A DNA stretch of 58,447 bases from positions 1 to 58,447 of IMG/VR virus record IMGVR_UViG_3300042507_007067; one strand, 5' to 3'. Made by a program: the position numbers and the translations under genes. This DNA comes from a virus. This document shows positions 5,451 to 49,847 of the stretch, piece by piece; the stretch's first letter is position 1, and each line of letters starts with the position of its first letter. Under the pieces are notes generated by a model, which had not been told where the DNA came from, ran no database searches, and saw nothing but the letters and a program-made list of their open reading frames with translations.

Positions 5451-5486
5451 TTTACATACGGATAAATATACTCTATCATTGAAGGT
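5451..5486 (+). promoter_or_regulatory. Sigma70-like promoter, near-leaderless, dNMP kinase gene
   Basis: TTTACA, 17-nt spacer, TATCAT, then 7 nt to the ATG at 5487. The transcript would begin at or within a base of the start codon. Confidence 0.7.
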
Positions 5487-6095
5487 ATGAGTATTTTTTA
5501 TATAGGTATAGGAGGAGTTGCGAGATCTGGCAAGGACAGTTTTGCTAACAATCTTCTAGATATTTTAAAAGAAAACAATTTTAATGCAATTAAAAGCTCG
5601 CTAGCAGAGCCCTTGAAGCACGATTGCAAAGAATTTATTTCATCTAAACTTGGTCTCGATGTCTGGACGGACAAAACAGAAGAAAAGGCTATTTTTAGAG
5701 AGATGTTGGTATGGTATGGAAAAGTCAAAAGACAACAATCAGAAGGCCAATATTGGACAAATCTTCTAACAAAAAGAGTCGAAATGGCCGCTCCAGAGAT
5801 CTGTATTGTTCCAGATGTGAGATACCTCCAATATCCAGAAGACGAGGTTTTTTGGCTGAAAAACAAGATGAATGGAATTCTTATTCATATAGAAAGAAAA
5901 GACATCAATGGAGACATTGTTCCGCCAGCAAATATGGACGAATCAATTAATGATAAATTAATTAAAGACAATGCTGATTACTCTGTAGTCTGGCCCACAT
6001 ATGCTCCAGATGATCTTTCTAGTCTTGCCAACGAAGTAAAAAAGGTTTACCATGAGTTTATAGAAAAAAATATATATGCAGCAAAAAATTCGTAG
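5487..6095 (+). CDS. Deoxynucleoside monophosphate kinase (dNMP kinase)
   Basis: 202 aa. Phosphorylates dNMPs to dNDPs for phage DNA synthesis. P-loop GGVARSGKDS at residues 9-18 (Lys16), and PDVRYLQYPEDE near residue 110, the acceptor/Arg region seen in T4 gp1-type and related phage kinases; the C-terminal DESINDKLIKDNADYSV is also typical. It opens the nucleotide/replication cluster with its own promoter and overlaps dnaB by 20 nt. Confidence 0.85.
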   Translation: MSIFYIGIGGVARSGKDSFANNLLDILKENNFNAIKSSLAEPLKHDCKEFISSKLGLDVWTDKTEEKAIFREMLVWYGKVKRQQSEGQYWTNLLTKRVEMAAPEICIVPDVRYLQYPEDEVFWLKNKMNGILIHIERKDINGDIVPPANMDESINDKLIKDNADYSVVWPTYAPDDLSSLANEVKKVYHEFIEKNIYAAKNS

Positions 6096-7563
6096 CGTTA
6101 ATGTAGAAAAACACGTACTTGCGGGCTTTATTAAGCATCCAAAGGTATACCACGATGTTTCTCATTTTATAAATGAGCAGGATTTCACTAATGGGCATAA
6201 GACTATTTTTAGTGTCGTCAAAAATCAGATCATGCATAACCAGCCATTGGATGCGGTGATCCTGTCAGAAAAGATTAAAAATCTAGGCATTACATTTAAC
6301 AAACAGGATTTCAATATCTTTGACTACATTGAAGGGTTGTCATTTATCAAAATCAGCGAAAAGTCTCTTTTAGAAGCATGCAAGGAGCTTAAGACAGTCA
6401 CTATTCGTAGGGAAATTTTTGAAACATCGTCACAAATCCAAGAGGCAATGTTAAATTCTGGAGATCAGAATCCAGATCAAATTATCAGTTTGGCGGATAA
6501 GATGTACAATGATAAGATAAGTGCATATGATCTAGATGTAAAGCCAGAAGACTTGTTTGCAAATATCGAGCAACTAATCGAGGAAAGAGCAAACGCTCCA
6601 GTAGCCGAACTCGGATACATGACCCCCTACAAGCAATTTAATCAAATGTATGGTGGATTAAGGCCCGGCGAACTCTACGCTTGGGTATCTAGGCCAAAGC
6701 ACGGTAAAAGCACTATCCTAAACGACATCGCAACCAAGTCTACTGTTATTAATCCTAACATGCGCGCATTGATTCTTGATACGGAAATGCAGACTAATGT
6801 CATGAAGTTTCGTATCGCCAGCAGTATAACTGGTATACCAATGTGGTATCTAGAAACTGGTAATTTTAAAAACAATAAAGAACTATTGGCAAGATGGAAC
6901 AGCAAGAAGACAGAGCTTTCCCTAATTCAAGGAAGAGTTAATCATATGCAGGTAGCTGGAAAACCAGTTCAAGAAATTGAATCTATTATCCAAAGGTGGT
7001 ATTTAAGTGAAGTTGGTCGGGGCAATCCAGCTATGGTTGTTTATGACTATATCAAACTAACTGGCGAAACCGGAGATAAAAACAAACAAGAATATCAATT
7101 AATTGGCGACAAGGTAGACTCTTTGAAAAATCTATCAGTTAGATTAAATATTCCATTATTAACGGCTTGTCAGCTAAATAGAAATGCCGAAAACGGGGCA
7201 GATGACAGTTCCGCTATTTCTCAGAGTGATCGCTTGCAATGGTTCGCCGCATACGTTGGAATCTTTAGAAGGAAAACCTTAGAAGAACAAGCCGAGGATG
7301 GTATTCAGTATGGCACACACAAAATGATTGAACTTGCGGCCAGATATCAAGGCAAAAACGCTCATGGGCACAGCGACCTGATTAAGGTCAAAGATGGAAA
7401 CCAGTTCAAGTATAAAAAGAATTTCATTTCATTTAATGTAAATAATTTCGATGTACAAGAGAAGGGAACCTTGCAGGACATTGTAGATTCAAAGTCTGGC
7501 GTAAAGGTTGATATTTTTGATCGGGATTATAAAGAGGACGATGACAATGGGGAATTACTATGA
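6076..7563 (+). CDS. dnaB: Replicative DNA helicase, DnaB family
   Basis: 495 aa, normal length for DnaB. N-terminal helical domain (residues about 5-110, with LAGFIKHPKVYHDV and HKTIF like the DnaB-N fold), linker, then the RecA-like motor: GLRPGELYAWVSRPKHGKST with Walker A Lys211-Ser212, LILDTEMQT (Walker B region near 233), and LNIPLLTACQLNRNAEN (the DnaB motif ending in QLNR). Acts as hexamer at the fork, unwinding ahead of the Pol III-like enzyme encoded downstream. Its TGA overlaps the primase ATG, suggesting coupled synthesis of helicase and primase. Confidence 0.95.
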   Translation: MQQKIRSVNVEKHVLAGFIKHPKVYHDVSHFINEQDFTNGHKTIFSVVKNQIMHNQPLDAVILSEKIKNLGITFNKQDFNIFDYIEGLSFIKISEKSLLEACKELKTVTIRREIFETSSQIQEAMLNSGDQNPDQIISLADKMYNDKISAYDLDVKPEDLFANIEQLIEERANAPVAELGYMTPYKQFNQMYGGLRPGELYAWVSRPKHGKSTILNDIATKSTVINPNMRALILDTEMQTNVMKFRIASSITGIPMWYLETGNFKNNKELLARWNSKKTELSLIQGRVNHMQVAGKPVQEIESIIQRWYLSEVGRGNPAMVVYDYIKLTGETGDKNKQEYQLIGDKVDSLKNLSVRLNIPLLTACQLNRNAENGADDSSAISQSDRLQWFAAYVGIFRRKTLEEQAEDGIQYGTHKMIELAARYQGKNAHGHSDLIKVKDGNQFKYKKNFISFNVNNFDVQEKGTLQDIVDSKSGVKVDIFDRDYKEDDDNGELL

Positions 7564-8462
7564 ACCTAGTCGAGTTGCTCAAAAACGCTGGCTGTAAACC
7601 CAAGAGTCATGGTACATATTTAACATGTACGGCAAAATATCGTGGCGGAGATGATCCAACTTCCGTAGCGGTTTATCTTCAGACAAATACTGTTCATGAC
7701 TTTGTTACTAGTAAAACAATGTCGCTTGAGGAGTTCTTGAAAAAGACTCTAAACTTAAAGTCACATGAGCAATTAGATAAAATAATCAATGGAACGAAAG
7801 AATACTATTCTTCTTGCTTTTCCACTGTAGACAACGATGATCCGTTTAGCAAAACAGTAAAATATTACTCAAGTGATGATATGTTATCATTAAAAGACGA
7901 ACATTCCTACTGGAATGGCAGAGGCATAAGTAGCGAAATCTTAAAAACATTTCAGAGTGGAACATGCTATACTGGCAAAATGAAGAATAGGTATGTTTTC
8001 CCAATTTTTAATTCTCGAAAAAAAATAGAAGGGTTTTCTGGTAGAGATGTTTCCGGAGCTTCTAAAATCAAGTGGAAGCACATTGGTAAAAAAAATGATT
8101 GGGCATATCCATTGGTTTTTAGTCATAAATATATAACAGATAAAAATGAAATAATATTAACTGAAAGCATAGGGGACATGCTATCACTGTGGAGATCTGG
8201 TATAAAAAACACAGGAATAACATTTGGCACTGATATAGGAACTGGTTTAATAAAAGCAATATTGCGTCTAGATCCAAAAAGTATTATCATTGCAACTAAT
8301 AATGATCAAAATCAAGCAGGACAAAATGCGGCAAAGGGGATCAAAACAAAACTAATGGAGTTTTTTGACGATAACCAAATCAAAATTGCACATCCTATTA
8401 AAAATGATTTTGGCGAACAAGACGATGAAGAAAATTTACTTTGGTACAATAATTTAAAATAA
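7560..8462 (+). CDS. DNA primase, DnaG/Toprim type, degenerate zinc ribbon
   Basis: 300 aa, about half the length of bacterial DnaG. The region YLTCTAKYRGGDDPTSVAV (residues 20-38) aligns with the CHC2 zinc-ribbon start, but only one Cys remains and the downstream Cys pair is missing. Then WNGRGIS and FPIFNSRKKIEGFSGRDV (primase core), and the Toprim pieces ILTESIGDMLSLWRSG (Glu) and SIIIATNNDQNQAGQNAAK (the Asp/Asn acidic site). It would lay RNA primers with the adjacent DnaB. A helicase-binding C-terminal domain is not evident. Confidence 0.85.
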   Translation: MNLVELLKNAGCKPKSHGTYLTCTAKYRGGDDPTSVAVYLQTNTVHDFVTSKTMSLEEFLKKTLNLKSHEQLDKIINGTKEYYSSCFSTVDNDDPFSKTVKYYSSDDMLSLKDEHSYWNGRGISSEILKTFQSGTCYTGKMKNRYVFPIFNSRKKIEGFSGRDVSGASKIKWKHIGKKNDWAYPLVFSHKYITDKNEIILTESIGDMLSLWRSGIKNTGITFGTDIGTGLIKAILRLDPKSIIIATNNDQNQAGQNAAKGIKTKLMEFFDDNQIKIAHPIKNDFGEQDDEENLLWYNNLK

Positions 8463-8463
8463 T

Positions 8464-8949: not shown

Positions 8950-9947
8950 GCGAAGAACTTGTAAGACTATCTGCTAGCCGAATTAAAACTTTGCAGTCAT
9001 GCAGTTGGAGCTACTATGCAAACTATGTACTAAAATTACCTCAGACAAATAATTCTGGAGCAATGCGTGGAACCATTGCACACTTAATATTTGAAACCCT
9101 GTCCAATTCAAGGCATCACAAATATGTAAAAAAAATTGTTAAAAAGAACACGTGCGAAGCAGTTCCCAGTGTGTGGCGTTTAATATTTAAAACTGCAAAA
9201 AAAATCGGCCTAGATTTAGACGAGATGGTTAAACCATTGAAAAAAGAGCCAGAAATTACTAATTTAAAGTGCATAGATGAAATGATTCTAGTTGGATTAG
9301 AATTTGATTTCATGGATATTAATGGCTTTATTGGCAGTGAGTGGGCATTTGACATCGTGAATGAAAGCCCAAAGTATCGTATAGTTGGATTCGTAGATAG
9401 GCTAGTAAAAGAAAAGGATGGAAGATTAACGGTTAGAGATTATAAAAGTAGTAAAAAGCCATTTGATGCAGAAGAGCTTGAAAGCAATCTTCAAAGCATG
9501 ATGTACACACTTGCGCTAAAGAAGAAGTACCCAAATGAATACAAAGAAATCGTTGCGAAGTTTCTCTTTTTAAGATACCCAAAGGATCCAGAAAAATCCT
9601 CTCCAGTTTTTTCTGATATAGAGCTAGAGGGGTTCGAGCATTATCTCGAACATATATCAAAATATTTACAGAACTTTAACGATGAACATGCAAAAACTAA
9701 TTTTGCAAAGCATGACTTTAGTAAGAAGTGGATGTGTAAAACAAAATCTGGCTGGAAATGCCCATACTTGGAGCCAATATCCTACAAGGTTTTAGTTGAT
9801 AAAGATAAAAAAATAATTAAATCAGTGTTCGCAACGCAAGAAATAGATCCAGAAGATATTAAAGAAGGATTCACGATTGAAAACCGTGAATACTCAGGAT
9901 GTCCAGCTTGGGAAGTCAAAAAGCAGAAAGATGCATTTGACTTTTAA
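8946..9947 (+). CDS. RecB/Cas4-like PD-(D/E)XK nuclease, possible Fe-S protein
   Basis: 333 aa. N-terminal LSASRIKTLQSCSWSYYANY and GAMRGTIAHLIFETL are the characteristic RecB/AddB/Cas4 nuclease motifs (helix with Cys, then R-G-x-x-x-H). The active-site strand is TVRDYKSSKKP (D-x-K). Cys at about residue 19 together with Cys residues in WKCPYL and YSGCPAWE near the C-terminus resemble the one-plus-three cysteine arrangement of 4Fe-4S AddB/Cas4 nucleases, but the spacing is not canonical. In phages these act in recombination or replication-fork processing, which fits the replication cluster. Confidence 0.8.
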   Translation: MSEELVRLSASRIKTLQSCSWSYYANYVLKLPQTNNSGAMRGTIAHLIFETLSNSRHHKYVKKIVKKNTCEAVPSVWRLIFKTAKKIGLDLDEMVKPLKKEPEITNLKCIDEMILVGLEFDFMDINGFIGSEWAFDIVNESPKYRIVGFVDRLVKEKDGRLTVRDYKSSKKPFDAEELESNLQSMMYTLALKKKYPNEYKEIVAKFLFLRYPKDPEKSSPVFSDIELEGFEHYLEHISKYLQNFNDEHAKTNFAKHDFSKKWMCKTKSGWKCPYLEPISYKVLVDKDKKIIKSVFATQEIDPEDIKEGFTIENREYSGCPAWEVKKQKDAFDF

Positions 9948-9971
9948 ATAAAATACTGGTAACATCAGAGT
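9937..9971 (+). promoter_or_regulatory. Leaderless promoter, ClpP-like gene
   Basis: TTGACT, 17-nt spacer, TAACAT, then exactly 6 nt to the ATG at 9972. Its -35 box lies in the last codons of the upstream nuclease gene. Confidence 0.7.
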
Positions 9972-10532
9972 ATGCAATATATCTGCGTAAATCAAATCAA
10001 CGAACATGGTCTTAGGAAGTTTCGCCAAGAATTTTGGAATATAGATAGAAATACAGATCAGCCAATCATACCAATAGTTATTGATTGTTATGGTGGTGAA
10101 GTATATTCAGTATTGGGGATGGTGAGCATTATAAAAAGCACTGAGAAGCAGGTTTGCACTATAGTTGACTCCAAAGCCATGAGTGCCGCCGCCATCTTGT
10201 TAAGCTGTGGAACCAAGGGCTTGAGATTCGCAAGTGAATATGCTCATATCATGGTACATGAAGTGCTAACTGGAACTGGACAAACGAAAGTGAGTGATGT
10301 CAATATTGATACAAATCACGCACTCGCTTTAAATAAGCAGTTATTTTCAATTCTCGACAAGAACTGCGGCAAGACAAGCGGCTTCTTCTACAAGGCTGTA
10401 GAGAGCAACAAGAATAGCAATCTATACCTAAACGCCAAACAGGCAAAGAAATATGGCATTATTGATCACATCGACAGCCCAAGGCTAAACATCTCCAGAG
10501 AATATTCAATATCTACTTTAACCAATCAGTAA
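9972..10532 (+). CDS. clpP: ClpP-like serine protease with Asn at the acidic triad position
   Basis: 186 aa, ClpP fold. Seen: IDCYGGEVYSVLGM (the SPGG region, altered to CYGG), SKAMSAAAILLSCG with nucleophile Ser71, and HIMVHEV with catalytic His96. Aligning the C-terminal YLNAKQAKKYGIIDHI to the ClpP DRFLSAPEAVEYGLVD region puts Asn150 where the third catalytic residue, Asp, should be, so activity may be reduced. In phages ClpP-like proteins often act in head maturation, but this one stands between recombination and polymerase genes with its own promoter. Its start abuts the polymerase genes downstream with no gap. Confidence 0.8.
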   Translation: MQYICVNQINEHGLRKFRQEFWNIDRNTDQPIIPIVIDCYGGEVYSVLGMVSIIKSTEKQVCTIVDSKAMSAAAILLSCGTKGLRFASEYAHIMVHEVLTGTGQTKVSDVNIDTNHALALNKQLFSILDKNCGKTSGFFYKAVESNKNSNLYLNAKQAKKYGIIDHIDSPRLNISREYSISTLTNQ

Positions 10533-11279: not shown

Positions 11280-11901
11280 TCTTTTACGTTTTCAGAAAAA
11301 GCAAAAGTATTTGGTCTTTGATCTGGAAACCGAATCATTAAATCTTGCTAACTCTAGACCTTGGCAAATTTCTTGGTTAATTGCAGAGGGCAATAAAATC
11401 ATTAAAAATGAAGATAGGTTCGTTTATTGGGACGACCTAAAAATGTCTGATGGTGCTGCAAAGATAACGCGCTTCGATAGAGCCGCTTGGGCTAAAAAAG
11501 CAGAAGATCCTAAAAAGGTTGTTACTGATTTTGATAAATATCTTTATAATAAAGATTATATAATTATTGGCGCAAACCTACTTGGTTTCGATGTTTATCA
11601 ACACAATAACTTAAGAAGGGCAGTAGGACTAGAGACAGATTATTCTTATGTAGATAGAATTCTTGATGTACAATCAATACAAAAGAGTATATACTTGGGT
11701 ATTAAATCAATACCAGAAGATCGTTCTGGTTGGAATTTCCAAATGCAAAACTTTAGACAGCGAGGACTCAAAACATCGGTAAAACATCTTTCTAGCGTAT
11801 ATGAAATACCATACGATGAAAATCGTGCGCACGATGCTATTTACGATAACGAGCTAGTGTTTTCTATTTTTAAAAAACAAATTTTTTCAATTGAAGTATG
11901 A
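11269..11901 (+). CDS. DEDDh 3'-5' exonuclease (DnaQ/epsilon-like proofreader)
   Basis: 210 aa. Exo motifs in order: VFDLETESLNLAN (D-x-E, motif I, near residue 17), IIGANLLGFDVYQHN (Exo II Asp, near 101), and RAHDAIYDNELVF (H-x4-D, Exo III, near 190). It most likely proofreads for the split polymerase: it lies between the PHP and core genes and overlaps both (11 nt and 4 nt). A domain order of PHP, exonuclease, polymerase is reminiscent of PolC, where the exonuclease is inserted in the PHP domain. Confidence 0.9.
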   Translation: MQDNLLRFQKKQKYLVFDLETESLNLANSRPWQISWLIAEGNKIIKNEDRFVYWDDLKMSDGAAKITRFDRAAWAKKAEDPKKVVTDFDKYLYNKDYIIIGANLLGFDVYQHNNLRRAVGLETDYSYVDRILDVQSIQKSIYLGIKSIPEDRSGWNFQMQNFRQRGLKTSVKHLSSVYEIPYDENRAHDAIYDNELVFSIFKKQIFSIEV

Positions 11902-14435
11902 GCGATAAATTTCTTAAAGAATTCGGCACAATAAAGATTGACAACGTAAACCTTGTCCGTCTTCCTAGTATTAATCTTACCGATGAGGAAAAGACAGTTA
12001 TTAAAAAATCTGTAACTAATAATGACGAGTTTTTACAACAATTAATTAATAAGGGCTGGGTGTCTTTTAGGGATAAGGTAGACAAGACTCTGTGGCCTAC
12101 ATATATCGAAAGACTGCAAGAGGAGTTCTCTATTGTTCAGGAACTTGGATTCGTTGATTATTTTCTATTGGTTTGGAGAGTAATTAACAAGGCCAGACAA
12201 ATGGGAGCGTTCATTGATTGGGGTCGTGGAAGTGCCGCTGGTAGTTTGATATTCTTTTTAATTGGAGTAACAGGAGTTGATCCAATAGATAAGAAACTAT
12301 TCTTTACAAGATTCATTTCCAAGGTAAGAGCAAAAAAAGAAATTATTGACGGTGTAACATATATACAAGGAGATTTGGCACCAGATGTTGATATTAACTT
12401 GGGCGGGGTTAGAGAAGAAATAATCGAATGGTTAAAATCATGTTATCCTAATAAGGTTGCCAAGATTTCAGCCCTATCAACATTCTCTGGCAAGATTCTA
12501 GTTAAAGATGTTTTTAAGATAATAAATGAGGCAACAGAAGAAATGGCGTCCGATCTTGCGGATACGATTGGCAAGGCCTTTGGAGTAGTTGAAGATATTG
12601 AAGATTCCTACAATAATAGCGAAAAATTTAAAGAATGGGCGGACGCATATCCAGAGTCTTATGGCATAGCGTTAAAATTACGTGACCTAATCCGTGGAAA
12701 ATCCACACATGCAAGTGGGTACTTTATTTCATATTATCCATTAAATGAATTTATTCCTATTGAGCTAAATAAGGAAGGAGAAACAAGCATTTCATACGAA
12801 ATGAATACAGCGGCAAAGTTTGGTATTAAACTAGATCTGCTTGGTTTAACAAGTAATGAAATTATTAAGGATATCTTTGAGAACATTCCCGAAACAATTA
12901 ACGATATCGATCTTGATACAAATATCGACGTTTATAAACATTTACAGAGTGATAACTTAAAGCCATATGGCCTTTATCAAATTAGTGCTGATTGCGCATA
13001 TCGTGTTTGTCAGAAAATTAAACCAGCAAATATTCAAGAGCTTAGTGACGTAAACGCCATAGCAAGGCCCGGCGCTTTGGCCTATGAGGACAAGTATGTT
13101 TGTATGTCCGGTGAGCCACCGCATGAAAAATTAAGAGAAGTGTTCGCGGAAAGTAGAAACCTACCTCTATATCAAGAGCAACTTATTCAAAGCCTTGTTG
13201 CAGTAGGGTTTTCTGCAGATGAAGGAGAAATTATTCGTCGAGTTATTGGAAAAAAGAAAAGAGACGAAATGCCAAAATGGAAAGACAAGGTTTTTGAAAC
13301 GTGCAAAAATAATGGTTTTGGCGAACAGGTCGCGGAAGCGATTTGGAAAGTTTGCAGTGATTCGGCAGATTATTCATTTAATAAGTCACATTCAATGGCC
13401 ACGGCCTATCTTGGTGCACTTACGGTCTATCTTAAATATAAATATCCATTACAATTTTTTACGGCATGCCTAAATGCTAGTCAAAGGCTTCCAGAACCAA
13501 TGGAGGAAATCAGAAAAATACAACAAGAGTTGCCATATTTTAAAATTAAGCTACTGCCACCACACTTGCTTAAGTCTGATATGAAATTCACGATTGATGG
13601 AAACAATATTCGTTATGGATTAAGTGCAATCAAGGGAGTTTCAGATAGCGCCATGGAAAAATTAATTAAATTCCGTGGGGAGTATGACAGCAAGGTAGAT
13701 TGTTTTGTTGCGGCAAAACAGGCCGGACTAAATATTGGCGTACTATCTTCATTAATACAGGCCGGAGCTTTGGACGAACTGGATACAAAAAGAACAAGAC
13801 TTGTTCTTGAGGCACAAACTTACAATCTATTAACAGATCGTGAAAAACGTCTAGTTAAAGATATACATGATCAGACTGAAAATAAAGACGTTCTTTCAAT
13901 TATAAAGTTTTTGAATGAAAAAGCCCAAATCAAAGACAGTAGGTTCGAAACCATTAAGGGCAAGTACAATACTTACAAAGACATCTATACTCTAAATAGC
14001 AGAAATGAAGAGGTTACAAACTACTTCTACGAACGTAACTGCCTAGGTTTTAGCTACAGTCAGAACTTAACAAAGCTTTTTAAAAAGAAAAACGCTGAAT
14101 TTAATACGGTTGAATACATCAAAGAGAATAAGAAAGAAAACGATAGAGTGCTTATTGTGGGACAAGTGCTTGAATGCAAACAGTCCAAATCCAAGAATGG
14201 TAATAAATTCTATAAAGCGGTAGTTGCAGATGACACGGGAACAATTACTTGTTTACTATTTGATGGCAAGCAAGGCTTGTTAGATGAGTGCAAGCATGAC
14301 AATGGTGGAATACTACCAGAAGAGGATGATATTGTTGCTATAAAGGGTAGATTTAAGGGTAACGATGCGATTTTCGCAGACAAGATAATAAAGCAAGACT
14401 GTAAAATATATAAGAACATGCGTGACTTGAAATAA
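11898..14435 (+). CDS. dnaE: DNA polymerase III alpha core lacking the N-terminal PHP domain
   Basis: 845 aa, C-family polymerase catalytic part. Seen: FIDWGRGSAAGSLIFFLIG near residue 108 (the GRGSAAGS palm motif), LAPDVDINLGG near 158 (two catalytic Asp, PDxD), SGKILVKDVFKI, HASGYFISYYPL, and YSFNKSHSMATAYLGALTVY near 495 (FNKSH). A helix-hairpin-helix region follows near 600-640, and a C-terminal OB domain (RVLIVGQVLECKQSKSKNG to LLFDGKQG) near 755-800. The usual N-terminal about 250 residues are supplied by the gene at 10533. Last gene of the replication run; its ATG overlaps the exonuclease stop. Confidence 0.95.
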   Translation: MSDKFLKEFGTIKIDNVNLVRLPSINLTDEEKTVIKKSVTNNDEFLQQLINKGWVSFRDKVDKTLWPTYIERLQEEFSIVQELGFVDYFLLVWRVINKARQMGAFIDWGRGSAAGSLIFFLIGVTGVDPIDKKLFFTRFISKVRAKKEIIDGVTYIQGDLAPDVDINLGGVREEIIEWLKSCYPNKVAKISALSTFSGKILVKDVFKIINEATEEMASDLADTIGKAFGVVEDIEDSYNNSEKFKEWADAYPESYGIALKLRDLIRGKSTHASGYFISYYPLNEFIPIELNKEGETSISYEMNTAAKFGIKLDLLGLTSNEIIKDIFENIPETINDIDLDTNIDVYKHLQSDNLKPYGLYQISADCAYRVCQKIKPANIQELSDVNAIARPGALAYEDKYVCMSGEPPHEKLREVFAESRNLPLYQEQLIQSLVAVGFSADEGEIIRRVIGKKKRDEMPKWKDKVFETCKNNGFGEQVAEAIWKVCSDSADYSFNKSHSMATAYLGALTVYLKYKYPLQFFTACLNASQRLPEPMEEIRKIQQELPYFKIKLLPPHLLKSDMKFTIDGNNIRYGLSAIKGVSDSAMEKLIKFRGEYDSKVDCFVAAKQAGLNIGVLSSLIQAGALDELDTKRTRLVLEAQTYNLLTDREKRLVKDIHDQTENKDVLSIIKFLNEKAQIKDSRFETIKGKYNTYKDIYTLNSRNEEVTNYFYERNCLGFSYSQNLTKLFKKKNAEFNTVEYIKENKKENDRVLIVGQVLECKQSKSKNGNKFYKAVVADDTGTITCLLFDGKQGLLDECKHDNGGILPEEDDIVAIKGRFKGNDAIFADKIIKQDCKIYKNMRDLK

Positions 14436-14438: not shown

Positions 14439-14476
14439 TTGATTTTTTTTAATTAAAAGTGTAATAATATATTACA
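14439..14476 (+). promoter_or_regulatory. Weak promoter with a perfect inverted repeat over the -10 box
   Basis: TTGATT, 17 nt, TAATAA. The -10 box is covered by TGTAATA-ATA-TATTACA (14460-14476), a perfect 7-bp inverted repeat with a 3-nt centre, a plausible operator for a repressor. The gene start is 21 nt past the -10, so unlike the others here this transcript would have a short leader. Confidence 0.45.
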
Positions 14477-14488
14477 AGACAATTATAT

Positions 14489-14881
14489 ATGAAGATCAAT
14501 ACAGAAATCAAGGCGTCCGAAGCAACTGGAGCGTTTTGCGCTACATTACTAAACGCTGCTACTGTAGCTCATATATTACATTTTCAGACCCGCAGTTTTT
14601 CACATCACGAGGCTTTAGGTGATTTATACGAAGGGTTGCCAGATTTTATAGATTCAATCGTTGAGGCATTTCAGGGAAAGACACAGTCTTTACTTCAATT
14701 TCCAGCACAATCAGTAACTACTCCAGCCAATGCCTTAGATTTTGTTATTTCACTAAACAGTTACTTATCATCCAATAGATATGTAGCATTCTCTGATAAG
14801 GACACAGAAATTCAGAATATTATAGATGAAATCGTAGTTCTCTTAGAGAAAACCATTTACAAATTAACATTCCTAGCCTAA
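14489..14881 (+). CDS. Ferritin-like four-helix protein (DUF5856-type)
   Basis: 130 aa, all-helical. ATVAHILHFQTRSFSHHEALGDLYEGLPDFIDSIVEAFQ is cut into two recognisable parts: the H-x-x-H-F-Q-T-R-S-F-x-x-H segment and the D-L-Y-E-G-L helix, the signature I associate with the ferritin-like DUF5856 proteins common in large phages. These resemble Dps/ferritin helices with His and Glu that could bind metal, but ferroxidase function is not proven. First gene after the polymerase, with its own promoter and operator-like palindrome. Confidence 0.7.
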   Translation: MKINTEIKASEATGAFCATLLNAATVAHILHFQTRSFSHHEALGDLYEGLPDFIDSIVEAFQGKTQSLLQFPAQSVTTPANALDFVISLNSYLSSNRYVAFSDKDTEIQNIIDEIVVLLEKTIYKLTFLA

Positions 14882-16340: not shown

Positions 16341-16376
16341 TTGACATAGTATTAATTTTGTTTTATACTTAACAGT
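16341..16376 (+). promoter_or_regulatory. Leaderless promoter, 94-aa gene
   Basis: TTGACA, 17-nt spacer, TATACT, 7 nt, ATG at 16377. Strong consensus match in a true intergenic gap. Confidence 0.75.
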
Positions 16377-16661
16377 ATGAATGCATTATGGACAATTGAA
16401 GGATGTGACTGGCAGGAACATTTGGTTGCGCCAATAGATTCGAACCCTATAGAAATAGCAACTAGAGCGTTAGAATCCATACTTGATAATAATATGTATG
16501 ACAACGAACTCTCCCTTGGTATGATCATAATGATCACGCATGATAAGATGAAATCCATAGACGAAACATTTGTTTGCTACATGCCCACGATTTTGGCAAA
16601 TGCAGGATATTACACTGAATCCGATAACCTTCAGAAAAAGATTGACCTAGTTCTAAAATAG
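16377..16661 (+). CDS. Uncharacterised small protein
   Basis: 94 aa, acidic, not recognised. Two predicted helices with CDWQEHLVAPIDSNPIEIAT and a Met-rich central stretch; no signal peptide or membrane segment. Its own consensus promoter with a start codon at the expected transcription start argues that it is a real gene. Confidence 0.7.
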   Translation: MNALWTIEGCDWQEHLVAPIDSNPIEIATRALESILDNNMYDNELSLGMIIMITHDKMKSIDETFVCYMPTILANAGYYTESDNLQKKIDLVLK

Positions 16662-16676
16662 CAATATTCTTATCTC
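16642..16676 (+). promoter_or_regulatory. Leaderless promoter, 84-aa exported protein
   Basis: TTGACC, 17-nt spacer, TATTCT, exactly 6 nt to the ATG at 16677. The -35 box lies within the end of the upstream gene. Confidence 0.7.
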
Positions 16677-16931
16677 ATGAAAACAATTACCGTATTGGCG
16701 CTCATGAGTCTTGCAAACCTTGCTATTGCTTCTGACATCAAACCAACAGAATATAGACAGGTTACAATTATTGGTATTGGTAACAACTCTTTTAATGCTT
16801 GTAACGATGCAAATAATAGGGCGTTTAATAGTAAAAAAGTTTTTGTAGGAACTCCTAATGTAGATCTTCGGCCCCTACCGAACGGTGGCTATATCTCTAT
16901 TATTACTAGAACAGAAAAAGTAACACATTGA
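16677..16931 (+). CDS. Small exported protein with signal peptide
   Basis: 84 aa. MKTITVLALMSLANLAIA is a standard Sec signal peptide with an A-x-A cleavage site before SDIKP. The mature part, about 65 aa, is a small predicted alpha/beta domain (YRQVTIIGIGNNSFNACNDA) with one cysteine and no recognised family. It suggests a diderm host envelope as the destination, though that is inference. The stop is 1 nt before the VWA-protein start, so the two may be linked. Confidence 0.7.
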   Translation: MKTITVLALMSLANLAIASDIKPTEYRQVTIIGIGNNSFNACNDANNRAFNSKKVFVGTPNVDLRPLPNGGYISIITRTEKVTH

Positions 16932-38126: not shown

Positions 38127-38161
38127 TTGACAGGTTTACCATATATTTATACCATATTGGT
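38127..38161 (+). promoter_or_regulatory. Leaderless promoter, coiled-coil gene
   Basis: TTGACA, 17-nt spacer, TACCAT, 6 nt, ATG at 38162. It sets the start at 38162 rather than an upstream in-frame ATG at 38114. Confidence 0.75.
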
Positions 38162-38557
38162 ATGTACAATTGGTTTAACTATTCTAGAGTGAAGAAGCAA
38201 CTTGAGAGTCAACTGGCTGAAAATGCGGCTCTTAGAGAAGAAAATAAAAATCTAGAAGATATCCTCAAGTCTATTGAGCAGGATGGAACAGAAGAGCATA
38301 ATAATGCAATAAAGCTTAGGCAGGAGAATGCAAAGCTTAAGGATGAGATTGCTAAGTGGGAAAAGTCTTGGGAAGAAGCAGCATCTGATTTAGCTTTGAG
38401 AGTAATAAAGCTCGAAAAACAAATAGAAGAGCTTAAAATTGTAAATATAACTAATCCATATAGTGCTATGAAACCTGATGGTACACTTAAAGCTATTAAT
38501 TGTGTAGGACATATACCTACAAATGGGTATGTGCCATCAAATCAAGATGCATTTTAA
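38162..38557 (+). CDS. Coiled-coil protein
   Basis: 131 aa. Heptad repeats run from about residue 12 to 90 (KKQLESQLAENAALREENK, KLRQENAKLKDEIAKWEKSW), giving one long coiled coil; the last 40 residues are Gly/Pro-rich and flexible. Possibly a structural or scaffolding role; no family name possible. Start taken from promoter geometry. Confidence 0.7.
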   Translation: MYNWFNYSRVKKQLESQLAENAALREENKNLEDILKSIEQDGTEEHNNAIKLRQENAKLKDEIAKWEKSWEEAASDLALRVIKLEKQIEELKIVNITNPYSAMKPDGTLKAINCVGHIPTNGYVPSNQDAF

Positions 38558-39012: not shown

Positions 39013-39047
39013 TTGACACCTCCTCCTAAAAGATATAGAATAAGATT
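39013..39047 (+). promoter_or_regulatory. Leaderless promoter, nearly identical to the one at 32416
   Basis: TTGACA, 17-nt spacer containing CCTCCTCCTAAAA, TAGAAT, AAGATT, ATG at 39048. Confidence 0.8.
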
Positions 39048-39398
39048 ATGAATAAAGAACTTTTTGAAGAAATTATCCTAAAGCTTCAGCTAATGCATGA
39101 AAAGGGTCGAAAGCTCTATGAACTTGGAATTGATCTGCTGGAATATACAGAATCATATGAAAGGATTATTGATGTCCTTTTGAAAGCTCATTTCAATGAT
39201 GATCAGATTGGATGGATTGATTGGTATCTTTATGAAAGACCATCTTTGACAGAGAGAGGAAAGTCAAACAAAGCTTATAAGACAGTTGGGAAGAAGAAAG
39301 TAGAAATCTGTCACACTATTGATTCTTTGTGGGAGACTATTCAGGAATATACCCCTCAAGCAGAATGGGATAAAAGGTGGCCGGGTAGAAACAAATGA
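39048..39398 (+). CDS. Uncharacterised helical protein
   Basis: 116 aa. Leu-rich helices (LFEEIILKLQLMHEKGRKLY, YELGIDLLEYTESYERIIDVL), then a Trp-rich patch (IGWIDWYLYE) and a basic C-terminus ending RWPGRNK. No motif recognised. Overlaps the following 39-aa frame by 4 nt. Confidence 0.6.
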   Translation: MNKELFEEIILKLQLMHEKGRKLYELGIDLLEYTESYERIIDVLLKAHFNDDQIGWIDWYLYERPSLTERGKSNKAYKTVGKKKVEICHTIDSLWETIQEYTPQAEWDKRWPGRNK

Positions 39399-40444: not shown

Positions 40445-41035
40445 GTGAACGACAAGCTAAGGAAAGAAACGGTTTTAGTATTGAACCGCAATTGGCAAGC
40501 TATTCATGTTAAAAGCCCTACCGAGGCGATTACAATGATGTACGCTGAAAACGCCACTGGTCTTGACATAAGAGGAGAAGACAATATGGTTCCATTAAAA
40601 TGGGCGGATTGGATTCAATTACCCATTGAAAACGAAACGGACGACTATATTCAAAGTATTCGTGGCAATATTAAAATACCAAAGGTAATTGTTCTTTGTC
40701 ATTATAATTTAGTTCCTAGAAAGCGGCCAAAATTTTCCGCTAAAGCCATATGGGAAAGAGACATGGGAACTTGCCAGTATACTGGGCAAAAGTTAATCCC
40801 AAATGATGCAAATATTGACCATGTAATTCCAAAATCTCGTGGCGGAAAAACCGATTGGTCTAACTGTGTACTCACGCATAAAGATATTAATGCAAAAAAA
40901 GCAGACAGGACGCCAGAAGAAGCTGGGCTACGCTTGATCAAGCGGCCACAAGATCCTAAAGAATTACCCTCTACTTTTTATATTAAAAATAAACACAAGG
41001 TTAAAGAATGGGAACTATTCTTAAATTGGAATTGA
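40445..41035 (+). CDS. HNH endonuclease
   Basis: 196 aa, GTG start at 40445. VLNRNWQAIHVKSPTEAITM is the common N-terminus of bacterial and phage HNH proteins; then IWERDMGTCQYTGQKLIP, ANIDHVIPKSRGGKTDWSNC and LTHKDINAKKADRTPEE form the HNH/zinc-finger domain (His in DHVIP, Asn, His in LTHKDIN). Free-standing homing-type or host-DNA-degrading nuclease. Not inserted in a recognisable gene. Confidence 0.8.
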   Translation: MNDKLRKETVLVLNRNWQAIHVKSPTEAITMMYAENATGLDIRGEDNMVPLKWADWIQLPIENETDDYIQSIRGNIKIPKVIVLCHYNLVPRKRPKFSAKAIWERDMGTCQYTGQKLIPNDANIDHVIPKSRGGKTDWSNCVLTHKDINAKKADRTPEEAGLRLIKRPQDPKELPSTFYIKNKHKVKEWELFLNWN

Positions 41036-41066
41036 CATACAATACATATACTGTTATCATATATTT
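41032..41066 (+). promoter_or_regulatory. Leaderless promoter, 249-aa gene
   Basis: TTGACA, 17-nt spacer, TATCAT, 6 nt, ATG at 41067. Located just behind the HNH gene. Confidence 0.8.
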
Positions 41067-41816
41067 ATGAATGCGAAAATTATTAAAACCCTAACTAAAA
41101 GATTAGAGGGCTCAAAAATCTTACCCTATATAAAGGTTAATAGTGTGGATGATTATTTTAATTTGCCAAGTTCAGAACGCGAAAGGTGGGGTCTTTATAG
41201 ACGGCCATTTGCATTGCCATGTGAATGGCTAGAAACTCGAATGGGCAAAAAGAGCGGCGACCTAAAGCCAGAGAAGAGGGGCTGGGCTTCTTGGCGTGAA
41301 CAAATTAAGCGCGAATATCCTGTTCAGTGGTTCCTACGTGAATGGTGTTTTAGTTACGAAAATCCAATCTATGCCTTTATTAAAGGCGTATACTTTGATT
41401 ATACGGAAAAGAAATATGCAATAAAGCGTTTTATTAAACCTTTTTATCCACGCTTTCGCAAGTCAATGCCACGGCATAAATATATTGATGTATGCGAAGC
41501 TCTGAAGAGAGTCAATTTTGCACTTATTTTAGATTTTTGGCACGATGAAATGAGTAGTGGAACTGTTGACTGGGAAGATAACGCCCAGCATAAAAATTTC
41601 TATAAGCGGGTAGAGGCACTAGTTAAATATATTGAAGTTGAACGTCCTGCACTAGAAAAGAAGGCCGACGACGCGCTCACGTTAGCGACCAATAAAAAGA
41701 CTGGAACATATGAACAACGTTATTCAAAATACAATGCAATAGAAGCAAAGATTGCACAAAAAGATACGGATCTTTTAGTATGGGCTATGCAAAATCGTGA
41801 GATGTTTTGGACGTAA
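41067..41816 (+). CDS. Uncharacterised phage protein
   Basis: 249 aa, basic and aromatic (ERERWGLYRRPFALPCEWLE, FIKPFYPRFRKSMPRHKYID) with a helical C-terminus. The aromatic/Arg-rich N-terminal half might bind nucleic acid or a protein partner; no known family. Preceded by a strong leaderless promoter. Confidence 0.6.
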   Translation: MNAKIIKTLTKRLEGSKILPYIKVNSVDDYFNLPSSERERWGLYRRPFALPCEWLETRMGKKSGDLKPEKRGWASWREQIKREYPVQWFLREWCFSYENPIYAFIKGVYFDYTEKKYAIKRFIKPFYPRFRKSMPRHKYIDVCEALKRVNFALILDFWHDEMSSGTVDWEDNAQHKNFYKRVEALVKYIEVERPALEKKADDALTLATNKKTGTYEQRYSKYNAIEAKIAQKDTDLLVWAMQNREMFWT

Positions 41817-42841: not shown

Positions 42842-43081
42842 TTAGTATAACTTGTTTTTAATAAAATTTACTGCTTCAATAAAATTAATAATTTTAGAAT
42901 CGGAAATGCGATTTTCATTAATCTTATTTACTAAAGTAATATCACCTAGTGGATCTAAATAAAAACTTAAATGAAATGCATTTTCTGAAAAGTTAATTGT
43001 AATTTCTTGTTTTTTAAATAAATTTGTACCAATTTCCTCGAACCCTAGTGATATTATATAATTATAAATAATTTCGTTCAT
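42842..43081 (-). CDS. Small uncharacterised protein
   Basis: 79 aa, minus strand, 3' end of the second structural run. Alternating alpha/beta (IISLGFEEIGTNLFKKQEIT, FHLSFYLDPLGDITLVNKIN). It follows the giant propeller-like gene by 8 nt, so perhaps a chaperone or accessory to it; that is only context. Confidence 0.6.
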   Translation of the reverse strand: MNEIIYNYIISLGFEEIGTNLFKKQEITINFSENAFHLSFYLDPLGDITLVNKINENRISDSKIINFIEAVNFIKNKLY

Positions 43082-43089
43082 AAACTTGA

Positions 43090-46000
43090 TTACACTCCAA
43101 ATCCTTTAAAATTCTTATCTAAATTTCCGCTATAATCCATTGCGGCAGTTGAGCATCTAAAATCTGGATGACGAAGATTTGAAAATAGTCCATGAAAATA
43201 AATTCGGTCGTTATTAAACGAGGCGTCGTAAACAAACATATTTGCAGAACTTGATGATGTACCAAGCTCTTGATTATTCTGGAATGCAAATGTTTGGTTA
43301 TCTATCACAAAATCATAATTAGTAAGATTATTTCCAGTTATTTTATCTTTTAAAGTAATAAAAGAATTTTGTGGAGAGGGCGAATTCATATGCCTATATT
43401 CCAACATGTCACCAAACTCCCCCACAGTTATTAACTCATCTCCATATGTCTTTATGTCCCATATTTGACCGGGGAACTGGTCTCCAAAACCAAATGGTGG
43501 ACGTTCTCTAAATACGCTATTTGGGCCAGCCCCCCCATAATTTCTAATTATATTACCACTTGTTAAACCTACTAAAAATACGCCTCTAGGACTATTACTA
43601 TCTCCAGAACCTCCTACTGATACAAGGTCTCCTCCTACAAATAAACCACTTGGATGAAGATGTAAAGCTGTAATTCCGTCAGTACCAAGAACATTTCTAG
43701 TATTATACCAATAAGAAGTATTTACAGTATATCCAGAGAAAGGTCTGAATGTTGTTAAGTGTGCAGCTGTATTTGTATCAAATGCAGCTACTCCTACATA
43801 TGCACTAACTGGCGCCGCTCCAAATTGTGATGTTGTTCCAGCTGTGTATATAGTATTTCCAGTAATAGCCATTTTTCTTAACACTCCATTAAGAATGCTT
43901 GGATTATATGACTCTAAAGCACCGCCAGAAGCCGCCGAAACGTCAAATCTGCAAATTCTGTTTCTACTCAAACCACTTACCGTAGTGAAGTCACCACAAG
44001 CAAACATCTTATTACCACTAAACTGTAAATCCCAAACATCAGCATTCATATTTGGGTTCCAGCTATCTAACGTATTATCATTAAGATTAATTCTAGCAAT
44101 TCTATTCCTTGCTGTTCCAAGTACAGATGTAAATGTTCCGCCAATATAAAGAAAATTATCTCTTCTTTTTATTGCAAAAACACTATTATTAACATTATAA
44201 TCAATCCCTGAAATTCTCTGGTTATTTAAATCAAACCATGCCACTCTATTTCTTGTAACTGTTGACTCATTACTTGTTGTCGGAGACATATTTTGAACAA
44301 GTGTAAATTGTCCACCGATATACATAAATCCAGATTCCAAGAAACTAGACAATATACCGCCATTCCGAGTACAACGTGGCGCTCCATTATTAATATTACC
44401 AGTAATAAGATTTCCAGAATCTAAGTTATAAGCAAGTTGATTTGCATAAGGCCTAAAATTTTCATTTCCAACTGATATACCCAAACTATTAAATGTTCCG
44501 TTGATATATGCATTATTATTATATATTTCTATAGTTCTACCAGCGCCTACCTGATTAAGCATTAAACTCAAAACAGGGGTATCTAAAAGAGTGCCACTTT
44601 GAATACTGAACATCGCCATGCCGCCCCTTCTTTCTCCAGCATGCGCAAAACTTCCACAAACTAAAACTCCAGATGGGGTTACCCTGATATTTGTAGGTTC
44701 TCTAGGTAATTTTGGATCCCATGCTAATAATCCAGTGTTATTTAAATTAATTGCCGCGCCGAAGTTTCTTTCTTGACCCAAGACTCTTCTAAATGCCCCA
44801 CCTATATACAATGTATTAGTACTTGTATCAATATCCATTGCCTTAACTTCACGATCAAGGTTTAAATTAAAATTTGTAATTGCATTATTTTGCAAGTCTA
44901 AACAGAATAATCCATTTCTAATCAAACCGCTTACTGTACCAAAAGTGCCACCAACATAGAGTCTGTCATTCTGTCTGCGCATGCACGAAATAACGGAATT
45001 AGAACTTGGCCCGGTTTTATTAGAATTAAAGCCAAAATTTTGAACTATTTCAAAATTTGTTCCATATCTCACTTGATTAGTATTTATATCAATACCAGCA
45101 AAAGACCTAATTCTATTTGGAACCGAACCAGAAACAAAATTTCCACCCATAAATAGAACATTACCGCTTTTTTCTAAACATAAAATGTCGGTGTTAACGC
45201 CAAGATCAACATTGAAATTTGTAGTTAACCCACCAGTTCTCAAGTCTACAATCGCCACAGAATTTCTAATACCCGTAGTAAGTGTTGGCGAGTTTAGGCT
45301 ATTGAATCTACCACCAATTGCCAAAGTATTATCTCCAGTATCTAAGTGCATAGACCAAATCCCCTGCGCAAGATTATTTGACGAATAATTACTTGTTGGC
45401 GCGCTAACCATTTGAATATTTGGATTCCAGTCTAGAATTCTATTTGTATTCAGATCTACAGCAAAAGCATTATTTCTTTTTATTTTTTCAATAAATCCAC
45501 CATGACTTCTTCCAAAAATTAGCATGTTATTACCACGTTTTTGATAAGAATCAAATAAAAATCCATTACTTCCATGATAGTAACTATTACCACCACAACC
45601 TTGACTTAATCCAGTGTGTATTGTCAGACCACTCACATTGTCTATAATGTAAGGTGGATTTACAGGATTATGATCATTTGCTATTAATGTTGGATTTGAT
45701 GTTGAGTTATTAACTCTATATGTCCAAAGTCTGGACTGGTCAACCCTCAAATCCACAATAACCTTATTTCCAAACTCATTTACATATCCGCACAACACCT
45801 GAGGTAAAATGGAATTTGGCCTGAATCCAGTCATTATTATTCCATTTTCATAACCAACTCTACATAAAAATTGGTAATTGCCACCAGTTCCGCCTACGTT
45901 TGTAAAATCTCCACCAATGTAAAGGCCGCTTACACCGGTATTCATTGATCTAACAATTCCATTTAAGTTAGGATTAAATGGTAATAAAGTCATATCCGGA

Positions 46001-47970: not shown

Positions 47971-49248
47971 TTATCTACTTATTTCTTCCCAGTCCATTGT
48001 TGCCAATATTTTAGCTGGACTGCCTCCAGTAGCCGTGCCAGCGGATATAACTAGTGTTAATTCTTGAGCGGCTCCAGTGAGGCCATTACGTTCTAGCTGA
48101 AATTTAAAAAGAGCTTCCTTTAAAATATCAAGCGTTGGATTGGCCTGATTAGTTTGACTAATAAATCCTGCCGCTAAAATTCTACCACCAGAAAGAGTTG
48201 TTGCATCCATTTTATATTCTACAGCAGAATTATTGCCAGCACTTAACCAAGTGCCACTGCCGCCACTAGTGGTAGCATTTGCAACTACTTTCCATTTAAA
48301 GTTGCCACTTGATACTGGTAAGATGCTCAGCGCAGTAAGAATTACAATAGCATCCAATCTGCTTGATTTTAGTCTAATAGTAATTACAGGATAATCAGTA
48401 TTAGTTGTGGTTATTAATTCATAAGGAACAGTTACATCCTGACCAATTGCCTGTTGTAACCCCCTTAATTCATAGCCACCTTCTGAAATCACAGACGAAC
48501 ACACTTGCTTTAATGTACTTGGCCCACTAGTGGCAGATGTGTTTATTATTTCATATCTCAATGGCAATGAAGCAGTAGTGATATAGGTCGAATCAATAAT
48601 ATTCGCATGATGAAAAGTATGACAAACAATAAATTTACCATTAATAATAAATCCCATACGCACTGATCCAAGACCAAGCCATTCAACGTCCATCCATAAA
48701 ATTTGCGCCTTACTTATATCTAGTGTTAATCCAGAAGCTCCCTTTCCATCTAATTTATCCCCATTCCAATTTGATTTTAATACCCTTGTTTCAGTGGCCG
48801 GAGAGCCGTTTATCAAACTACGCTCTACAAAATTTAAATTATTACCATCTAACTCTAGATACATGCCATTGTCTTGGCCAAAATAACCCACTCTTTGTCT
48901 TAAACCAGTTTTTGCTGGCGACATAACGAATGTGTTGAAAATCAATAAAGATTTGCCCGGCTGATAAGAGAAAACTTTTGTTGTCTCTTTGGTCACAAAA
49001 GATCCAGAAGCGTTGGTTACCCTCATCTCAACCAGTCCTTGATTTTGATTGAAAACACCACTACCACTAACACCACTAGCAATAGACCAAAGATTGTTAT
49101 CAGCATATCTATGAGAGGAATCAAATAGAGTTAATGGCTGGGCTACTCTTAAACGACCAAATGCATCTACTGCGCCATCTGGATAACCAGCTATATTAAC
49201 ATAATTGGGATTAGAGGTTTGAAAATACGTTTCGACTCTATTGATCAT
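47971..49248 (-). CDS. Virion structural protein (common in large phages)
   Basis: 425 aa, minus strand, first gene of the structural run. DAFGRLRVAQPLTLFDSSHR with the downstream RVGYFGQDNGMYLELDGNNL and HTFHHANIIDSTYITTASLP are elements I recognise from structural proteins of unknown detail in large phages and cyanophages. Beta-rich C-terminal half ends with ILATMDWEEIS. Divergent from the AT-hook gene, with an 83-nt gap. Confidence 0.65.
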   Translation of the reverse strand: MINRVETYFQTSNPNYVNIAGYPDGAVDAFGRLRVAQPLTLFDSSHRYADNNLWSIASGVSGSGVFNQNQGLVEMRVTNASGSFVTKETTKVFSYQPGKSLLIFNTFVMSPAKTGLRQRVGYFGQDNGMYLELDGNNLNFVERSLINGSPATETRVLKSNWNGDKLDGKGASGLTLDISKAQILWMDVEWLGLGSVRMGFIINGKFIVCHTFHHANIIDSTYITTASLPLRYEIINTSATSGPSTLKQVCSSVISEGGYELRGLQQAIGQDVTVPYELITTTNTDYPVITIRLKSSRLDAIVILTALSILPVSSGNFKWKVVANATTSGGSGTWLSAGNNSAVEYKMDATTLSGGRILAAGFISQTNQANPTLDILKEALFKFQLERNGLTGAAQELTLVISAGTATGGSPAKILATMDWEEISR

Positions 49249-49296
49249 ACAGTATATTACACAGTTTTTAGAAAAAATTAATTTTTAAAAAAATAC

Positions 49297-49331
49297 TTGC
49301 TTAACTGTAAAAATAGGATTACTATGGACGA
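49297..49331 (+). promoter_or_regulatory. Leaderless promoter, AT-hook regulator gene
   Basis: TTGCTT, 17-nt spacer, TACTAT, 6 nt, ATG at 49332. It lies in the divergent gap opposite the virion-gene promoter. Confidence 0.7.
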
Positions 49332-49847
49332 ATGAAGAACACTGAAAAAACACAGAAACTTGGCTGGCTACAGGCGGGAGATACGTTTGAAATCCCTTCT
49401 CTGAAAGACTTGATGCGAAATTTGAAGGTTTTGTCTACAAACGAGTCGAGCACTTCTGTACAGGGAGATCGTCGTGACAGCGTTAACGACGAGTGGAGAA
49501 GTTTCAGGTTCCCAATTTCAAACGATGTAAATGTGATCGTTGTTGAAAGAAATCCGATTAAAGAGACAGTTGACGAAAACGGTTCGAAAAAAATCGAGGA
49601 AAAACAGGTTGAGACAAAGGCCACGAAGCGCGGCAGGGGTAGACCATCAAATCACGTGAAGTCACTAAACGAAATGAGTGGAACCTCTGGAGAGTTTACA
49701 GTTAATGATATTGTTTCCAAGAATGGCGTTAAAGAGTATCAGGCGCACAATTTAGTGAGGAGTGCCCTTAAGCAAGGCAAGGTGACGGTGGTGAAGGAAA
49801 TCTCTGGTGGCAGGGGAAAGCCGAGGAAGGTTTATCGTCTAGCTTAA
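49332..49847 (+). CDS. AT-hook plus winged-helix-like DNA-binding regulator
   Basis: 171 aa. ATKRGRGRPSNHVKS at about residue 98 is an AT-hook (R-G-R-P core). From about 118 a winged-helix-like domain is suggested: GEFTVNDIVSKNGVKEYQAH, NLVRSALKQGKVTVV and the wing GRGKPRKVYRL. The N-terminal 70 residues are charged. Such a protein would bind AT-rich DNA, possibly to switch the oppositely oriented virion genes, but target and role are inference. Confidence 0.65.
   Translation: MKNTEKTQKLGWLQAGDTFEIPSLKDLMRNLKVLSTNESSTSVQGDRRDSVNDEWRSFRFPISNDVNVIVVERNPIKETVDENGSKKIEEKQVETKATKRGRGRPSNHVKSLNEMSGTSGEFTVNDIVSKNGVKEYQAHNLVRSALKQGKVTVVKEISGGRGKPRKVYRLA

Follow-up and report, generated by a model that had tools for sequence, protein, structure and literature searches.

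The TA-led genes of Zheng (2011; PMC3160421), which carry a TANNNT box about 12 nucleotides (nt) ahead of the start, are taken there as leaderless; leaderless genes with this layout have been described in many bacteria (PMC3160421; PMC12340547), the surveyed cases are reported to concentrate in archaea, Actinobacteria and Deinococcus-Thermus (PMC3160421), and in D. radiodurans a −10 motif is reported 6–7 bp ahead of the open reading frame (ORF; PMC12340547). Phage transcripts in general have been called "often leaderless" (PMC5312081), and the closest described system is the Thermus phage phiYS40, most of whose middle and late transcripts are given as leaderless in PMC3594737, citing Sevostyanova (2007). 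Here we describe an arrangement of this kind in the viral record IMGVR_UViG_3300042507_007067, the 58,447 nt of which (35% GC) were analyzed as a whole and are called the window. At 21 of its genes a promoter of the form TTGAC-N18-TANNNT, designated P1, lies immediately ahead of the start codon at a distance d, the number of nt between the −10 box and that codon.

The promoter pattern is real, although not as uniform as first described. Scored against TTGACA-N17-TATAAT at 6–9 nt, all 21 starts have the 17-nt spacer, and d is 6 at 15 of them, 7 at three, 8 at two and 9 at one, exactly as a sequence-only reading of this DNA had claimed. That reading also called the promoters uniformly TTGACA/TATAAT, and here the spacing holds but the uniformity was overstated, as the consensus is the looser TTGAC-N18-TANNNT, which is matched exactly at 10 of the 21 starts and with one mismatch of eight at nine, and starts 19932 and 49332 are weak. 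A pattern with TATANT as the −10 box matched nothing because the real −10 box is TANNNT, and this box stands about 12 nt ahead of the start, as in TA-led genes, with a spike of starts at 6 nt past it. Over the 12 positions of TTGACA plus TATAAT, at most two, three and four mismatches are found at 11, 16 and 19 of the 21 starts, versus 2, 11 and 70 of the 2031 other ATGs in the window, and shuffled upstream sequences lead one to expect 0.17, 1.08 and 5.38 per 89 starts. At two mismatches or fewer the motif is present at 11 of the 89 called starts and, among 653 other ATGs that follow AT-rich sequence, at one. The strict form occurs at 15 sites in the window, 10 of them with a called start 6–9 nt on, while the eight other spacers (13–16 and 18–21) give 25 sites and a single one before a called start. 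The scan against random and shuffled ATGs by which the earlier claim was to be judged thus speaks for it, the motif being far from equally frequent at random ATGs. That an AT-rich genome simply yields TATA-like words before ATGs draws some comfort from the loosest cut, which those 70 other ATGs also pass, but it is barely credible for the set as a whole, where the strict counts, the single spacer, the excess in close relatives (172 matches versus 13) and the conservation at many orthologues exclude it; start 19932 may still be a chance match.

Relatives were found with the DnaE-like polymerase encoded at 11898–14435 of the window as query, which gave 41 viral loci, 19 close (73–100% identity) and 22 distant (38–44%). 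With TTGAC-N18-TANNNT-N6..9-ATG as the pattern and its reversal as the control, 13 close records hold 172 matches versus 13 controls, at 3 to 26 matches per record, the window being among them together with G003, which is probably redundant (DnaE 100% identical, same counts as the window), and nine distant records hold 18 versus 2. Six close contigs were analyzed further, G005 and G010 as a whole and the others in part (G001, 140,000 of 140,531 bases; G009, 160,000 of 166,536; G012, 140,000 of 146,949; G008, 68,475 of 108,475), and these with the window are referred to as the seven records. In the six contigs the 17-nt spacer gives 181 sites, of which 74 have a called start at 6–9 nt and 45 at exactly 6, and the eight other spacers give 413 sites, of which 22 have a start at 6–9 nt. 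A start at that distance follows 84 of 196 sites with the −35 word TTGAC, 13 of 133 and 2 of 51 with the near-consensus TTGAA and TTGCC, and 1 of 221 with five altered or scrambled words. Among upstream regions, P1 with at most one mismatch is found in 140 of 603 from the close set and the window (control 1) and in 6 of 123 from the distant set (control 0).

The logo of the 84 sites consists of an A-rich stretch ahead of the −35 box, TTGAC[AT], an AAA within the spacer and TANNAT, with A reaching 85–87% at offsets 14 and 15 from the first T of the −35 box (offset 0); the 21 window promoters have their A peaks at the same two offsets (18 and 17 of 21). The A-rich stretch sits at what we take to be the position of an UP element, and the spacer AAA presumably coincides with the described position of a "Z element", a contact site of core polymerase.

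Several lines of evidence place the start of translation at the ATG next to P1. Behind 190 strict sites, ORFs of at least 30 codons at d = 6 begin with ATG in 60 cases and with GTG or TTG in none, so the AUG start that characterizes TA-led genes is found here as well. Between the window and G001, 15 orthologue pairs of at least 60% identity align from residue 1, 14 of them without early gaps, and over codons 2–16 the changes at positions 1, 2 and 3 number 30, 17 and 92 of 210; the excess at the third position indicates coding sequence from the second codon onward. Matches in the six contigs make up 69 gene–contig pairs, of which 47 could be counted because the alignment includes residue 1 and places it on an ATG. 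At 31 of these 47 orthologue starts P1 is kept with at most one mismatch of eight and at 36 with at most two, the reversed control giving 0 and 4. Conservation by column shows no clear contrast when anchored on the ATG (TTGAC 68%, upstream 69%), in part because the distances between promoter and ATG vary; anchored on the promoter it reaches 86% for TTGAC, 92% for TA, 94% for the final T and 69% for AAA, versus 44–49% for the rest of the spacer and 62% upstream, in a set picked for at most two mismatches at those eight positions, so that the contrast at AAA alone escapes this selection.

These results bear on the idea that the promoters are real but that the true start codons lie downstream, so that the mRNAs would have ordinary leaders. 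A second in-frame ATG does occur within 13 codons in 6 of the 21 genes (16677, 19932, 30292, 30521, 32451 and 34676), but in the other 15 the next one is at least 15 codons on, and the coding character of codons 2–16, the orthologues that, in most counted cases, align from their first residue and have the promoter about as far away, and ATG as the sole start-like codon at d = 6 make this explanation very improbable.

The start regions of P1 genes are also poor in Shine-Dalgarno (SD) sequences, here any of AAGG, AGGA, GGAG or GAGG at −17 to −4. Only one of the 21 starts has such a word (AGGA at 49332, overlapping its promoter), which equals the control (1 of 21) and bears out the claim that these genes have no SD; in the seven records it is 5 of 166 P1 starts, with 13 of 166 in the control. 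The frequency is 4 of 59 at starts 7–13 nt from the element GTGTAA described below (control 1), 21 of 292 at other starts with gaps of at least 25 (control 16) and 3 of 76 for the rest (control 9). A missing SD is no proof of leaderless mRNA by itself, since Flavobacterium is reported to have no SD and yet leaders averaging 33 nt (PMC6847099), and it is the position of the promoter that shows it. As to start context apart from the SD, T is found at −1 before the ATG in 63% of 86 called genes of the window, and A at −3 in 58% of the tightly packed genes of the seven records.

It might be argued that the motifs are promoters but that longer read-through transcripts make most of the protein, with the leaderless RNAs contributing little. 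Many genes do lie on one strand with short gaps, which favors it, but P1 starts lack the SD on which leadered translation could draw, and the spike at 6 nt with AUG only suggests selection on the 5′ end of the mRNA; we regard this alternative as improbable.

The best support, short of experiment, for taking the arrangement to mean leaderless mRNA is the match with phiYS40, in which TTGAC-N18-TANNNT-N6-9-ATG occurs at 11 sites versus one control in 152 kb, while the same scan gives 2 in T4, 0 in SPO1, 4 in S-PM2 and 1 in DSS3_MAL1, with controls of 0 in each. The two are not alike in all respects. SD-like words stand at 24 of 58 annotated starts in the first 50 kb of phiYS40 (58 of 59 listed genes, a cut one excluded), compared with the 5 of 166 P1 starts above, P1 matches per kb are 0.07 in phiYS40 and 0.19 in the window (0.02–0.19 in close records), and the polymerase is DnaE-like in the window and differently annotated in phiYS40. 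In comparison with the TA-led genes of Actinobacteria and Deinococcus-Thermus, the present case is a 35%-GC phage with a strong −35 box, one dominant spacer length and a conserved AAA.

We consider it highly probable that sigma-70-type promoters 6–9 nt before the start give leaderless mRNAs that would be translated via a 5′-terminal AUG. Leaderless initiation is the best reading and is partly supported: promoter position, AUG exclusivity, conservation at many orthologues, a coding signal that begins at codon 2 and the positive control phiYS40 all agree with what the sequence-only reading proposed, which stays a prediction. With sigma-70 geometry and d of 6–9, the mRNA start would fall 0–3 nt ahead of the ATG. 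Host RNA polymerase, presumably with a host sigma factor, probably reads P1, transcription would begin at the A of the ATG when d = 6 and otherwise up to about 3 nt upstream, and the ribosome would recognize the 5′-terminal AUG of these leaderless mRNAs rather than an SD.

A second element, designated P2, emerged from a word count in 378 upstream regions with at least three mismatches to P1, where GTGTAA is present in 86 versus 14.8 expected. There are 423 GTGTAA sites, 135 of them within 60 nt of a start, 66 at 7–13 nt and 37 at exactly 8 nt (d here counted from GTGTAA to the ATG). Control words stand near starts at frequencies from 9 of 355 (GTGTTA) to 46 of 821 (GTATAA); for TTACAC, the reverse complement, the figure is 50 of 423, and none of these words, TTACAC included, has a comparable spike at 8 nt. 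The P2 logo is GTGTAAWW, and further upstream TTGAC is found at 0 of 66 sites, TTGA at 12 and TTG at 23. The modal end of the octamer is 6 nt before the ATG, which matches the position of the P1 −10 box. In the distant set GTGTAA is present in 26 of 123 regions versus 2.6 expected, and over all 279 upstream sequences 21 of 32 sites are at 8–12 nt. Of the 39 genes between 20 and 60 kb in G001, the portion in which the terminase gene lies, 10 have GTGTAA and one has P1. P2 is probably a late element, although the two classes are mixed elsewhere. Gene 29832 connects the two, with P1 in the window and G001 and, in the G008 and G010 orthologues, GTGTAA 8 nt ahead of the ATG instead; the promoter class has changed and the leaderless distance has been kept.

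The late promoters of T4 are described as a lone TATA-type box of 8 bp that precedes the start by about one helical turn, without a −35 box and read with a small divergent sigma factor, gp55, which resembles sigma-70 only in domain 2 (PMC2988020). P2 resembles them as an apparently single octamer without a −35 box ahead of a predicted transcription start, and differs in that GTGTAAWW replaces the T4 box and that its position predicts leaderless mRNA. Late in infection GTGTAAWW is probably recognized with the help of a sigma-like factor of the phage, and, with P2 at a matching distance, the same leaderless logic probably covers part of the late program, while some GTGTAA-linked genes instead carry a leader with an SD-like sequence.

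Two different sigma-like proteins are encoded in the relatives, one at L081:16324–16923 and the other at L069:16645–17322 (− strand), each with orthologues. Weak Sigma70_r4 signals in 6 of 10 records, none above the cut-off, pointed to a protein of about 200 residues that is 53–86% identical among close contigs, and P1 precedes its gene in the five cases read, exactly in four (that of G005 lies ahead of the second ATG) and with one mismatch in G008. Among five members, Pfam Sigma70_r2 scores 24.1 (cut-off 24) in one, 21.5 and 22.5 in two, and nothing in two, one of which matches the unrelated eukaryotic family P16-Arc just above the cut-off; all five members match PHROG 351, "RNA polymerase sigma factor", with E values between 3.4e-10 and 6.7e-6. 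A Foldseek search with a low-confidence model of this protein returned mostly transcription-initiation and sigma entries, with 1 of 389 at E ≤ 0.001 and TM-scores of at most 0.35. The second protein, of about 225 residues, is present in the close and distant sets, and Sigma70_r2 is above the cut-off in both members scanned. Compared with gp55, described as similar to sigma-70 in domain 2 only (PMC2988020), the candidate here has weak region-4 and helix-turn-helix signals. The leaderless kind of start is known from phiYS40, and what is new here is the AAA in the spacer, the second element GTGTAAWW and the candidate phage sigma factor. Searches of open-licence literature on leaderless mRNA with phages, CPR/Patescibacteria, tmRNA tags and phage promoters turned up no report of this lineage; GTGTAA was not among the terms sought.

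A number of observations weigh against so general a picture. Gene starts come from our own simple ORF caller, starts 19932 and 49332 are further than one mismatch from the P1 consensus, and for 92 of the seven records' 196 strict sites the caller placed no gene within 60 nt; some of these stand before short or uncalled ORFs or before RNA genes, and the others are probably chance. At 11 of the 47 orthologue starts there are more than two mismatches to P1, the promoter having been lost or never present, and 22 of the 69 pairs were left out of that count, so that the presence of any one promoter varies among relatives. SD-like words are enriched in leadered GTGTAA genes (14 of 51 starts 14–50 nt from the element, control 3) and mildly in tightly packed genes (76 of 438, or 17%, versus 35 of 438), and leaderless initiation is therefore not universal in these phages; host ribosomes can probably use an SD, as a minority of genes do and P1 starts do not. 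The density of P1 is uneven, with 3 matches in 125 kb of G004 and 4 in 121 kb of G006 (0.024 and 0.033 per kb, versus 0.10 over all 13 close records), and the claim that leaderless translation defines the phage fits the window, but among close relatives the density ranges from 0.02 to 0.19 matches per kb. As to the sigma factor, the predicted structure of the 200-residue protein is poor (a pLDDT confidence score of 54.9), neither sigma-like protein was matched in the window (no match above E 0.4), and that one of them reads GTGTAAWW is something we infer.

GTGTAA is kept in relatives only about 40% alike in DnaE, where P1 is rarer. A wider proposal, which we offer tentatively and place slightly on the doubtful side, is that the lineage runs much of its program on leaderless mRNA through two separately tuned promoters, the host-type TTGAC/AAA/TANNAT and the phage-sigma GTGTAAWW, with orthologues such as those of 29832 switching between them, a phage sigma system that, as this distribution suggests, is retained as the host-type promoters track the host, and a host that would itself be largely leaderless. 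The arrangement is known from few phages and here is apparently used by two kinds of promoter, whose similar distances from the AUG make it a natural source of data on what start-site geometry a leaderless mRNA requires. With such a layout at many transcription units, this 35%-GC phage lineage also offers a promoter signature with which to seek the host, and it carries the warning that SD-based start prediction may perform badly on such genomes.

The individual P1 sites of the window are all on the + strand and are given here by the start of their gene, with mismatches counted over eight positions unless stated and orthologues only where countable in the six contigs. Exact sites with d = 6 precede 9972 (9937–9974; 3 of 3 orthologues exact), 16677 (16642–16679; 1 of 1), 29832 (29797–29834; 1 of 1 counted), 33713 (33678–33715; 1 of 1), 36358 (36323–36360; 2 of 3), 38162 (38127–38164; 1 of 1) and 41067 (41032–41069; 2 of 2 with at most one mismatch), and an exact site with d = 7 precedes 16377 (16341–16379; 5 of 5 with at most one mismatch, d 6–11). 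The dNMP kinase-like gene 5487 (5451–5489) has d = 7, and all six of its counted orthologues are within one mismatch. Sites with one mismatch precede the AAA ATPase gene 18221 (18184–18223, d = 8; 2 of 3 orthologues with at most two mismatches), the metallophosphatase-like gene 28285 (28250–28287, d = 6; 2 of 5 with at most two), 33016 (32978–33018, d = 9; 3 of 4 with at most one) and 34676 (34641–34678, d = 6, −10 box AATAAT; 2 of 5 with at most two). The weak P1-like site of 19932 (19896–19934, d = 7) has 6 of 12 mismatches, its orthologues being better (3 of 3 with at most two), and the weak site of 49332 (49297–49334, d = 6) has 5 of 12, the G001 orthologue having two. Near-identical promoter cassettes precede small genes. 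The cassette TTGAAGTGTCCTAAA, with one mismatch, is found at 30292 (30257–30294, d = 6), 30521 (30486–30523, d = 6; the sole counted orthologue is without P1), 31097 (31060–31099, d = 8) and 31362 (31327–31364, d = 6), and the cassette TTGACACCTCCTCCTAAA, exact and with d = 6, at 32451 (32416–32453) and 39048 (39013–39050; 1 of 2 orthologues); similar copies are present in G001, G008 and G010.

P2 sites in the window include one with d = 9 ahead of gene 26217–26561 (26559–26576, −) and one with d = 12 ahead of gene 55918 (55900–55920, +), and sites with a leader, both with d = 24, ahead of genes 14489 (14459–14491, +) and 25140–25697 (25695–25727, −). A P2-like GTGTAA with d = 8 ahead of gene 42842–43081 (43079–43095, −) shares bases with the stop codon of the gene upstream and may be chance. 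The P2 element GTGTAATA (49246–49262, −), with d = 8, precedes gene 47971–49248 (−), which encodes a virion structural protein (PHROG 1645).

The window also encodes a transfer-messenger RNA (tmRNA; 52968–53409, +), which the sequence-only reading had recognized and which matches Rfam RF00023 end to end; its P1-like promoter (52846–52874, +) lies 93 nt upstream and so has the normal leader of an RNA gene, as had been stated. The 32-residue tag, AKAIANAVKSVKSAMTNVVEFFREEERYALAA, ends in YALAA, and a similar tag is found in L046 (by ARAGORN), L048 and L050 and a different one, by our own reading, in L047. The phage tmRNAs of the window and L044–L050 have 32-residue tags of two kinds within one clade, ending in YALAA or, by our own reading, in YLMAA. 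The G010 tmRNA had no match among plasmids.

A scan of genome contigs gave one distant relative, L042, with 40% DnaE identity, on a 25-kb contig in a Flavobacteriaceae metagenome-assembled genome (MAG), G022, whose own tmRNA tag, GENNYALAA, is unlike that of the phage. Bacteroidota, the one host group examined, are as a group unlikely to be the host, as 41 of their genomes show no excess of the P1 arrangement (284 matches versus 292 controls, 19 genomes above and 18 below their own control). The highest values among them are 30 versus 8 in G022 and 26 versus 2 in G036, more than 10 times sparser per kb than in the window; the MAG holding the distant relative thus also tops the Bacteroidota for P1 matches, possibly by mixed bins. 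The AAA form of P1, of which the window has only 3, gave one match each in 15 of 61 genomes and 11 controls in all.

Among the matches listed, relatives in the phage database are remote, at 22–24% for the TerL of G001 and 25–26% for the DnaE of the window. The virion protein 47971–49248 is 62–65% identical to Synechococcus myophage proteins among the matches listed, compared with about 25% for DnaE, and may belong to a shared structural module; a cyanobacterial host is not proposed from this protein, which may be mobile. Finally, the gene at 26615–27826 (+) encodes an N-acetylglucosamine (GlcNAc)-type glycosyltransferase; in the phage database it matches only three large Xanthomonas/Stenotrophomonas phages, at 35–38% identity.

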